Assembly: GCA_017569285.1 (NCBI GenBank)
Contig: CP069419.1
Span: 1,426,001-1,490,000 of the forward strand
Source: Clostridiales bacterium
GTDB taxonomy: Bacteria; Bacillota; Clostridia; Christensenellales; Aristaeellaceae
Direction: 5' to 3'
Length of the DNA: 64,000 nt
Positions 13,488-16,175 of the stretch are shown piece by piece. Position numbers and translations under genes: made by a program. Numbering within the stretch: the stretch's first letter is position 1; each line of letters starts with the position of its first letter. The notes below the pieces were generated by a model. That model searched no databases and was not told where the DNA came from. It worked only from the letters and a program-made list of their open reading frames with translations.

Positions 13488-13883
13488 TTATTCCTTCAGC
13501 TCGCTGGTGCAGTGCGGGCAGCGGGTCGCCTTGATATCGATCTCGCTCTGGCAGAAGGGGCACTTCTTGGTGGTCGGTTCCGCGGCGGCTTCTTCCTTCT
13601 TCTTCAGTTCCTTGGCCTTGTTGAAAGCCTTGACGATCAGGAACAGCACCAGTGCGATCACCAGGAACTCAATCAGGATCGCGACGAAGTTCACGACACC
13701 GGTCAGCCAGCCGGCCTGGCCTTCATTGGCAATCTTGATGTTCTCAAGGATCGGGGTCAGGAAGATTTCGATCACGGCGTTGACAACCTTGCTGAACGCG
13801 CCGCCCAGGACCACGGCCACGGCCATGTCGAGGAAATTACCCTTGATTGCAAAATCCTTGAACTCCTTCAGAAACTTCTTCAT
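13488..13883 (-). CDS. mscL: Large-conductance mechanosensitive channel with C-terminal zinc ribbon
   Basis: A pentameric membrane channel that opens on osmotic downshock. The 131-residue protein starts MKKFLKEFKDFAIKGN, has TM1 with the pore motif VAVVLGGAFSKVV (about 20-45), and TM2 around 62-86. After the cytoplasmic helix (KAFNKAKELKKK) there is an added double CxxC module, CPFC and CPHC (about 107-126), which would bind one zinc. Most MscL proteins end without it. The start has GGAGGG. It is probably monocistronic, with its own terminator. Confidence 0.93.
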   Translation of the reverse strand: MKKFLKEFKDFAIKGNFLDMAVAVVLGGAFSKVVNAVIEIFLTPILENIKIANEGQAGWLTGVVNFVAILIEFLVIALVLFLIVKAFNKAKELKKKEEAAAEPTTKKCPFCQSEIDIKATRCPHCTSELKE

Positions 13884-13945: not shown

Positions 13946-14689
13946 TTACTTTTTGCCGAAGAGGCCGCTGATCACCTTGGTCAGGTTCTTCGTGATGTTG
14001 GTTACGATCTGGCGGGTCGCCGTGGAGATCGCGGTGTTCTTCACGCGGCCGGCAACCGAGTCATTCCGGCGGGCGCGCTCGGCGGCTTCTTCCCGCAGCT
14101 CATCAGCGCGGGCGCGGCGGGCAGCCGCTTCCTCTTCCTTCGCCTGGCGGGCAGCTTCACGGGCAGCCTTTTCGGCGGCCTTCTGCTGCTCGGCAAGGAC
14201 CTTGGGATCCGTCACAACCTGGGGCTGTGCCGCAACGGGCGTATAGGTTCCGGTGGCGGCGTCATACTGGACGGTCATCATCTGCTGGACCAGCTGGCCG
14301 GTCACGGGATCCTGCACCATAACGGGCATCTGCTGCAGCTGGGGCTGCACCTGGATCGTCGGAACCGTCTGTCCGGGCTGGACGATGCCCTGCACCGCCT
14401 GGACCACAGGCTGCGCGGCCTGCTGGACCGCCTGGACAACCGGCTGGGCGGCCTGCTGCACGGCCTGGACCACCGGCTCAGCGGCCTGCTGCACGGCCTG
14501 CACCACGGGCTGGGCCGCCTGCTCCACTGCCTGGACAACCGGCTGCGCGGCCTGTTCCACAGCCTGGATAACCGGCTGCGCGGCTTCGGCTGCCGCCTGG
14601 ACGGCTTCCGCCGGGGCAGTCATGCCTTCGATCTGCTTTTCCACATACGTTCCGGTTGCGGGGTCAAATACCTTGAATGTCTGTGCCAT
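13946..14689 (-). CDS. 11-residue-repeat protein resembling the detached C-terminal tail of HerA-type (DUF853) ATPases
   Basis: A 247-residue protein in three parts. Residues about 33-105 carry six near-identical 11-residue units of the type EQAAQPVVQAV. Residues about 105-160 are Gln/Pro/Val-rich and contain two TGxYV/TGxYT-like pieces. Residues 165-247 are a charged Ala/Glu/Arg helix followed by NDSVAGRVKNT...GLFGKK. That last part resembles, from memory, the tail that normally ends YjgR/DUF853 ATPases. The gene lies 70 bp after a HerA-type ATPase gene that lacks this tail. Ribosome-binding sequence before the ATG at 14689 is weak, so coupling to the ATPase gene is possible. Function is inferred only from this pairing. 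Confidence 0.7.
   Translation of the reverse strand: MAQTFKVFDPATGTYVEKQIEGMTAPAEAVQAAAEAAQPVIQAVEQAAQPVVQAVEQAAQPVVQAVQQAAEPVVQAVQQAAQPVVQAVQQAAQPVVQAVQGIVQPGQTVPTIQVQPQLQQMPVMVQDPVTGQLVQQMMTVQYDAATGTYTPVAAQPQVVTDPKVLAEQQKAAEKAAREAARQAKEEEAAARRARADELREEAAERARRNDSVAGRVKNTAISTATRQIVTNITKNLTKVISGLFGKK
14377..14590 (-). repeat. In-frame 33-bp tandem repeat (six units)
   Basis: The repeated protein unit QPVVQAVEQAA is encoded by 33-bp DNA units that differ mainly at synonymous positions. This suggests protein-level selection on the repeat rather than a very recent DNA expansion. Confidence 0.75.
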
Positions 14690-14759
14690 GTTCTGCTTGC
14701 ACGGTGCTCACCTGCGCCGTGAGAGGGGTCGTGGGGGAAACAGTGACTGCGGGGAATGC

Positions 14760-16175
14760 TCAGCGGGAGACCGGAAGCAGCGTGCCGTTCACGGTAATGT
14801 ACGCCGTCGGATTGACGTAGTTCACCCGCCACAGGATGCCGTTTACCAGATAGAACTGCGGCGCCTGCTGCGGGGCGGCGGGAATGGTTCCCGCCGGCTG
14901 AACCTGTCCCTGCACCCCGGCCGGGGCGGCAGGAGGATCGTACTTGCCCTTGAACGGACTGGCTCCGATCACCTGGGTGCGGATCTCGCCTGAGATCGCG
15001 CCCATATAACTCTGCGGGGGTAGAATGATTGCCCGCTCAACCACGCCCGGGGCTCCGTGCTCATCCAGGAATGAGACCAGCGCCTCCCCTGTCTTCAGGG
15101 TCGTAATCGCTTCTTCTGTATCAAAGGACGGATTCGTCCGGAACGTCTGGGCGGCGACCTTCACCGCTTTCTGGTCCAGCGGTGTGTAGGCCCGGAGGGC
15201 GTGCTGGATCCGGTTTCCCAGCTGGCCCAGGATGGTCATGGGAATATCCGCGGGGCTCTGGGTGATAAAGTAGACCCCCACGCCCTTGGACCGGATCAGG
15301 CGGACCACCTGCTCGATCTTCTCCATCAGGGCCCGCCCGCAGTTGTTGAACAGCAGGTGCGCTTCATCGAAGAAGAAAACGATCAGCGGTTTATCGGCAT
15401 CTCCCCGTTCGGGAAGGTAATCATAAAGCTCTGTCAGCATCCACAGCAGGAAGGTGGAATACATCGTGGGATTGTTGAACAGCCGGTCGGCAGAGAGGAT
15501 GTTGATGGTCCCCTGCCCGTTTGCGGCTGGTCCGAACCAGTCCTCAATATCAATGGCCGGCTCCCCGAAGAAAGTGTCCCCGCCCTGGTCCTCCAGGACC
15601 GCCACCGCGCGCTGGATCGCGCCGACGCTGGCAGAGGAGACGTTGCCGTAATGCAGGGTCAGTTCCTTGGCGTGCTCGCCGATATAGACCAGCATGCGTT
15701 TCAGGTCCAGGATATCCGTCAGCTTCTGTCCGATATCGCGGGCCACGCGGAACAGGATGTTCATCACGCCGCTCTGCGTCTCGTTCAGGGAAAGCATCCG
15801 GCTCAGCAGCAGGGGGCCCATCTTTTCCACCGTCGCGCGGATCGGATGCCCCTGTTCTCCGTACACGTCCCAGAAGACGGTTGGGTAATTCTTGAATTCA
15901 AACTCCCCGGCGGGCACATGGCACTTGTCCAGCCGCTTTTCAATCGCCTCGGTGGGATCCCCGGACAGCACCATACCGCTCAGGTCGCTCTTGATATCGC
16001 TCAGGAACACCGGAACGCCCATGTCGGAAAAGCTCTCCGCCAGGACCTTGAGGGAAACGGTTTTGCCCGTACCCGTCGCGCCGGCAATCAGCCCATGCCG
16101 GTTCGCCATGCCCGGAAGCAGATAAACCGGGGTCTCTCCCGCTGTGCCAACCCAGATTTTTCCTTCATGAAGCAT
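14760..16175 (-). CDS. HerA-type (DUF853/YjgR-like) hexameric ATPase
   Basis: A 471-residue FtsK/HerA-superfamily P-loop ATPase. Residues 15-40 have the family pattern LPGMANRHGLIAGATGTGKT (Walker A), Walker B is VFFFDEAHLLF near residue 273, and YFITQSPADIP follows. Archaeal HerA works with NurA on DNA ends. The bacterial YjgR-like group is poorly characterised. After SPFKGKYD, where homologues continue into a helical tail, this protein ends with a short hydrophobic stretch (FYLVNGILWRVNY). The tail-like sequence is found instead in the next gene. GGGGG precedes the ATG, and a good promoter lies at 16218-16246. Confidence 0.88.
   Translation of the reverse strand: MLHEGKIWVGTAGETPVYLLPGMANRHGLIAGATGTGKTVSLKVLAESFSDMGVPVFLSDIKSDLSGMVLSGDPTEAIEKRLDKCHVPAGEFEFKNYPTVFWDVYGEQGHPIRATVEKMGPLLLSRMLSLNETQSGVMNILFRVARDIGQKLTDILDLKRMLVYIGEHAKELTLHYGNVSSASVGAIQRAVAVLEDQGGDTFFGEPAIDIEDWFGPAANGQGTINILSADRLFNNPTMYSTFLLWMLTELYDYLPERGDADKPLIVFFFDEAHLLFNNCGRALMEKIEQVVRLIRSKGVGVYFITQSPADIPMTILGQLGNRIQHALRAYTPLDQKAVKVAAQTFRTNPSFDTEEAITTLKTGEALVSFLDEHGAPGVVERAIILPPQSYMGAISGEIRTQVIGASPFKGKYDPPAAPAGVQGQVQPAGTIPAAPQQAPQFYLVNGILWRVNYVNPTAYITVNGTLLPVSR

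Follow-up and report, generated by a model that had tools for sequence, protein, structure and literature searches.

Escherichia coli YjgR, a member of the DUF853 family of HerA-type ATPases, is called uncharacterised and is described as stabilised by ATP (PMC12819154). In archaeal HerA, a C-terminal brace is reported to stabilise neighbouring subunits of the hexamer (PMC5715905). A gene with a second start inside it is described for CRISPR, where the small subunit Cas11b begins at an internal in-frame Met of cas8b, the large-subunit gene (PMC11899642). Here we describe a locus from a Clostridiales bacterium (contig CP069419.1), analysed within a stretch of 64,000 nucleotides (the window), in which the core and the C-terminal tail of a DUF853 protein are encoded by two adjacent genes. 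In one-piece relatives of the same clade, the position at which the tail gene starts is marked by an in-frame ATG and a constrained nucleotide block.

An ATPase and its detached C-terminus

A sequence-only reading of the locus had proposed that a HerA-type ATPase stops soon after the motif SPFKGKYD, without the tail of DUF853 proteins, and that the next gene supplies it. Both open reading frames were found on the minus strand of the window, at 14760-16175 and 13946-14689 (Table 1). The first encodes a DUF853/YjgR-type HerA ATPase of 471 residues, the single ATPase match in its genome. Pfam PF05872 (HerA_C) matches it with E 3.4e-185, over profile positions 9-408 of 502 only, and phmmer aligns its residues 10-415 with the YjgR structure 11kk (E 9.4e-158). 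By the Pfam profile, the core (about 1-410) is present and the C-terminal region (about 420-502) is absent from the ATPase chain and located in the adjacent gene, so that the early end after SPFKGKYD is borne out. Two motifs of the core, GATGTGKT and FFFDEAH, which we take to be Walker A and Walker B, are intact. Judged from these matches, the full DUF853/HerA_C member is the pair of ATPase and tail, not the ATPase alone.

The 58 residues that follow SPFKGKYD lie outside the HerA_C match; they are Pro/Ala/Gln-rich and end in LVNGILWRV...VNGTLLPV. Of the 20 split ATPases in our tree, 19, among them the window's, have a related form of this new C-terminus; none of six inspected fused relatives has it. 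Its variants contain NG turns (motifs LVNGVLRQVV..YNG.LWPI or INGQWYYF), resembling a small hairpin in place of the lost part.

Table 1. Features of the ATPase-tail locus, in window coordinates
Feature	Position	Strand	Evidence
ATPase core, residues 1-413 through SPFKGKYD	14937..16175	(-)	HerA_C match; phmmer to 11kk
New ATPase C-terminal extension, residues 414-471 and stop	14760..14936	(-)	Comparison with split and fused relatives
Conserved nucleotide element just 5' of tail start	14690..14735	(-)	Third-position constraint, pair counts, covariance model
Possible hairpin, loop AGGTGA at 14708-14713, 18 nt before ATG	14700-14721	(-)	Stem drawing, pair counts
Tail gene, detached ATPase C-terminus, 247 aa	13946..14689	(-)	ORF, fused relatives, profile tests
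First beta-hairpin, FKVFDPATGTYVEK	14630..14689	(-)	Kept in fused and split forms; model strands 4-9, 14-19
11-residue (33-nt) repeat array, 5.9 copies, predicted disordered linker	14390..14584	(-)	TRF; pLDDT <50
Second and third DPxTG-type hairpins, PVMVQDPVTGQLVQQ, TVQYDAATGTYTPV	14237..14338	(-)	Conserved; model strands 118-126, 133-143, 148-151
Long C-terminal helix, highly conserved RRARADELREEAAERARRNDSVAGRVKNTAISTATRQ, and GLFGKK end	13958..14206	(-)	Model helix 162-244; conservation; HerA_C

The tail gene starts 70 nt downstream of the ATPase gene. Its product has no Pfam family above cut-off (OCRE and BA14K are weak matches below it), and a profile search up to E 0.1 returned no solved structure. 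The AlphaFold model has a mean pLDDT of 61, with values of about 64-91 in the helix at residues 162-244 and below 50 at residues 21-114. The conserved parts are the DPxTGxYV hairpins and the terminal helix. The DPxTGxYV motifs, two to three in each tail of the genus, resemble short beta-hairpin repeats (tail residues 4-19 and 118-151).

Six EQAAQPVVQAV units had been read in the tail, and the repeat protein had been proposed to dock on the ATPase hexamer. The array itself stands, with 5.9 copies, and the exact 11-mer occurs only twice, the remaining units being variants. Copies of the 11-mer, counted by pattern, range from 0 to 7 across 31 tails of the genus and are missing from 15 of them, a few of which carry loosely similar units. 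Since the repeats are lineage-specific and predicted to be disordered, they are unlikely to form the dock, and we abandoned a specific docking module as the lead idea. A membrane anchor is not claimed either, because the hydrophobic moment of the terminal helix falls within the range of shuffled sequences (912 of 2000 shuffles as high for residues 212-247, and 375 of 2000 for residues 208-245).

The correspondence between the tail and the DUF853 C-terminus is secure by steps through intermediate sequences, not directly. On its own, the last 86 residues of the window tail match HerA_C weakly (profile 419-499, E 0.0051), and the unrelated family IHO1 outscores HerA_C on the same residues (E 0.0022). 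Seven earlier-branching one-piece relatives (L090, L091, L101, L104, L106, L112 and L115) match HerA_C firmly over positions 421-502, with E between 6e-6 and 1e-4; for the nearer one-piece relatives L096 and L081, E is 0.022 and 0.13. A profile built from 11 intermediates scores 30 genus tails at 57.9-78.3 bits, far above the 860 shuffled decoys (at most 8.9 bits); one of the 31 tails, containing unknown letters, was dropped from this test, and L042, which gave no ORF by pattern, was unused. Under a profile of eight ordinary DUF853 C-termini, from which three of 11 with long Gly-rich ends (L035, L038 and L039) were omitted, the window tail reaches 9.9 bits versus a decoy maximum of 11.2, and the median of the 30 genus tails is 19.4 bits. 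When two basal forms are added to this profile, the window tail scores 15.2 versus a decoy maximum of 10.6, and one hhalign run gives a probability of 83. The profile comparison of both proteins with DUF853 thus agrees with the earlier suggestion that the next gene ends in a DUF853-like tail.

Fused and split relatives

The ATPase is found in 32 of the 37 genomes of the window's genus: 18 in split form, 13 in fused form and one cut by a contig end. The five genomes that lack it, three of them less than 90% complete, also lack the tail and the nucleotide element. Searching the collection of genome contigs with the tail profile returned 53 loci, of which 17 are split, 33 fused and three cut by contig ends (L102, L108 and L119). 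They are titled Clostridia, Clostridiales, Eubacteriales or Christensenella, many from goat, sheep, buffalo or deer gut. The ATPase and tail genes are neighbours in 17 of 17 split loci (gaps of 71-99 nt) and in 18 of 18 split genomes of the genus (gaps of 70-94 nt). The sequence-only reading thus holds for the separation of the ATPase from its own tail, for the fused form that it expected in other genomes, here within the same genus, and for conserved adjacency; neither a tail unlike DUF853 nor genes lying apart in relatives was found. Split loci also occur in genomes of few contigs (the window's, of two contigs, and G002, G023 and G036, of one or two contigs each), and therefore are not a sequencing artefact.

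These counts bear on the suggestion that the repeat protein lies beside the ATPase but is unrelated to it. In line with that reading, the window tail matches Pfam only weakly when searched directly, but 33 of the 53 loci have this tail fused to this ATPase, the two are jointly missing from five genomes and they are adjacent in the examined split loci. Because fused forms exist, this reading is already refuted, and we give it practically no weight. A phage or plasmid origin was likewise rejected, as no relative of the tail was found in viral contigs and the tail region of the basal relative L104 had no match among plasmids at E 1e-5.

At the level of the class, six of 391 genomes match the tail profile, the window's own included. 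Four loci from one distant genus (L123-L126) match positions 20-105 of the profile only, mostly its repeat part, and L127, a frame of 589 codons from another genus of the window's family, matches positions 3-55. On the 3' side of the tail gene, at 13488-13883 on the minus strand, lies a gene that we take to be mscL-like, with a C-terminal CPFC...CPHC extension; a similar frame also follows the fused gene in L025, L026 and L028-L030. In L089 (1622-5033), the open fused frame, of 1137 codons, extends far beyond the ATPase start on the upstream side, and a start giving 995 residues is probably too early.

Three stages are extant. The first is the ordinary DUF853 protein in one piece; in the second, DPxTGxYV hairpins and a low-complexity linker stand before the tail of a one-piece protein; the third is the split pair. 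L118 and L121, fused forms at the base, end in the ordinary DUF853 manner except for one or two inserted DPxTG hairpins, and this intermediate structure makes the order readable: the ordinary protein took up the insert, its tail helix then changed, and the split came last. In a maximum-likelihood tree of 64 ATPase cores, comprising 11 ordinary proteins, the fused forms and 20 split forms, the 11 canonical one-piece proteins group outside (100/99) and fused forms are basal. The 20 split and 18 fused forms make up a clade of 38 rows (100/100), with split forms nested in one-piece forms.

Mapped on this tree, the split label changes three times, and at least two changes are forced by starred branches. 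In AU tests, joining clade A (L071, L072 and L074) with the window's clade C is not rejected (p 0.27), and a single group of all split forms is only nearly rejected (p 0.057). Clades A and C have the new NG-turn type of ATPase C-terminus in common; L087 lacks it. Split forms probably arose from one-piece forms two or three times, with two events as the best estimate; the count is not firm, and a single origin is possible.

The internal ATG and the block before it

All 18 fused genes of the 38-row clade have an in-frame ATG at the position where the split tail starts, before the first hairpin, and thus share a conserved internal start codon. Among the 15 fused genes outside the clade, 13 have no Met there (12 and L118) and L121 has Met without the element; L105 was not parsed and is absent from this count and from the control below. 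The ATG is preceded by a block of about 45 nt with a consensus of roughly GTTTCCCC-ACGACCCCT-CGGYGCAGGWGA-RCACCG. Split loci keep the block in varying frames, and in all 36 sequences, fused and split, 8-12 nt separate its end from the ATG.

Within the fused genes, the block is constrained in a manner that its protein translation does not explain. The third codon position is identical (1.0) in nine of ten ungapped codon columns of the block in 17 of the 18 fused clade genes (L120 was omitted because of a contig end, and L121 lies outside the clade), while the encoded amino acids vary, for example PLAAQVSTAQ and PEPVQEITG. In the rest of these genes, an identity of 1.0 is reached by 26 of 553 columns (non-Met/Trp), and by none of 86 four-fold sites with an invariant residue in the ATPase core (maximum 0.88, mean 0.44). 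When the genes are scanned in segments of six codons (n=504), the top four overlap the block (0.84-0.89; next best 0.83). As a control, 13 of 14 named earlier fused-type loci without the ATG give 0.21-0.46 over codons -10 to -5, with positions counted by distance and unaligned. Amino acids that change under fixed third positions point to a constraint on the nucleic acid, not on the protein alone.

The likeliest role of the block would be in translation initiation of the tail, because it keeps a near-fixed short distance to the tail start in fused and split loci alike. From these comparisons we infer that the internal ATG may serve as a translation start that yields a free tail, and that this start is older than the split.

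Could the block instead act as DNA, as a protein-binding site, a promoter or the ATPase's own recognition site? Its exact pattern is unique in the window's genome, a covariance model of it matches once per genome in 39 of the 45 genus genomes, as expected of a single chromosomal site, and the block contains an imperfect inverted repeat. Against this, the 36 sequences hold their spacing to the tail start, G-U pairs occur among the stem variants (6 cells) and the block is absent from the five genomes that lack the gene, the covariance model having zero matches there and in G835. A promoter was ruled against, as no sigma-70-type match was found in the intergenic gap. We regard a DNA-level site as quite improbable. 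Searching Rfam with the block returned no family up to E 1.

Another possibility is that in split loci the two parts are still made as one protein, through frameshift, ribosome bypass or readthrough, in keeping with the short gap and the conserved block between the genes. The 17 gaps, however, are spread over all three frames (6, 7 and 4), a TGA in the tail frame of the window begins 21 nt before the ATG, and the split ATPases have gained a conserved C-terminus of their own. A programmed frameshift was rejected, as the frames between the split genes are not conserved, and we consider this whole group of explanations highly implausible.

Within the block, each of the 36 clade sequences allows a stem to be drawn under an AGG-type purine loop, mostly over 5-8 positions and commonly with one mismatch. 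The same search draws weaker stems in L119 and L121, two sequences from outside the clade (score 13, versus 14-19 within it), and both were omitted from the pair counts and from alignment A2, which cover the window and the ATG-bearing loci among L069-L120. Standard pairs make up 79% of these counts, and the covariation of 0.137, versus 0.060 in shuffles, was equalled in 0 of 500 of them; slid controls gave 0.002-0.093 (highest 0.093, 0.069 and 0.058). Column pair 53-79 occurs as CG, GC, AU, GU and UA, and one inner pair is mismatched in 14 of 36 sequences. RNAalifold leaves the stem unchosen, and fold energies are no better than those of shuffles (z of 0.55 for the window, and of 0.19, -0.21 and -0.19). 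A hairpin in the element is possible, with moderate support, and not proven.

No Shine-Dalgarno sequence was found at normal distance before the window tail ATG. The SD-like AGGTGA of the loop forms a weak duplex (-3.9 kcal/mol); among ten neighbouring starts, six have duplex energies of -8.0 to -12.4 and four of -3.1 to -5.3 kcal/mol. In the 36 sequences, the distance from the end of the AGG to the ATG is 17-23 nt, more than is usual for a Shine-Dalgarno interaction. We tentatively propose that the one-piece genes of the clade yield two products, and that this distant SD-like loop drives initiation of the tail and thereby enabled repeated fission at the same place; such a role would be nearly as apt to be right as wrong.

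A simpler account is plain gene fission, in which the tail gene took up a start when the gene broke, and the block of the fused genes has no role in translation, being retained for its peptide or left as a by-product of recombination of fused with split copies. It fits with the abnormal Shine-Dalgarno spacing and unremarkable hairpin energy in the window. It does not fit with block amino acids that differ between fused genes while third positions do not, or with an ATG retained in every fused gene of the clade. The codons flanking the block diverge normally, so that recombination would have had to carry over the same, very short tract in each of the 17 genes. Plain fission is, in our view, unlikely.

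Proposed mechanism and relation to known systems

We hypothesize the following course of events. A one-piece DUF853/YjgR-type HerA protein would have gained DPxTGxYV hairpins and a low-complexity linker between its core and its C-terminal helix. The in-frame ATG and the upstream nucleotide element would then have arisen, at the root of the window's clade, on the 5' side of the first hairpin, and with the internal ATG in use as a translation start, one gene would give both the full ATPase and a free tail consisting of hairpins, linker and terminal helix. The gene would later have broken upstream of this start, perhaps two or three times, leaving an ATPase gene followed by a tail gene. The free tail probably rejoins the ATPase ring through the terminal helix by which it was formerly attached. 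By analogy with the archaeal HerA brace, the tail helix of DUF853 proteins may extend across the ring. The number of tails per ring would no longer be fixed at one per subunit, and the free tail could set it.

As a whole, insertion, nested start, later gene break and rejoining of the tail to the ring make up the best explanation, which we consider probable. A free tail that never rebinds the ring also fits the data. A single-chain model of the fused form has a mean pLDDT of 64 and leaves the tail end unplaced (residues 657-697 below 50), and Foldseek searches with it return HerA-type ATPases.

If the two-product reading is true, an unstudied motor ATPase would have, in this element, an initiation or regulatory signal of a new kind. 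The natural cut at the junction of core and tail, together with uncut relatives that apparently make the tail alone, would offer ready-made two-part reagents for the role of the tail. The locus would also illustrate how a gene may have a nested start before it splits, in a family whose canonical, inserted, nested-start and split forms all still exist.

Among the matches listed, titles and abstract openings describe neither the split nor the inserted hairpins nor the nested start. Within this scope, we take the membership of the ATPase and tail pair in DUF853 as known, and these three features as apparently new. YjgR (PF05872; PDB 11kk, six chains) has an ATPase core of the same family as the window's, which shares 53% identity with that of an order-level relative in G046, and the C-terminal end of YjgR is similar to that of the window tail. 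Unlike in YjgR, core and tail are separate proteins in the window, and DPxTGxYV hairpins and a low-complexity linker precede the tail helix. Archaeal HerA, which acts with NurA, has the HerA fold common to the window's family (structure match to 4d2i at 16% sequence identity); its brace, as described, sits in the same chain, unlike the window tail. Cas8 and Cas11 of type I CRISPR are unrelated to these proteins, and separate-gene forms of Cas11 exist elsewhere. In the window's clade, unlike in Cas8/Cas11, it is nucleotide constraint that points to the internal start; if that start is used, the two systems, as far as Cas8/Cas11 is described, would work alike.
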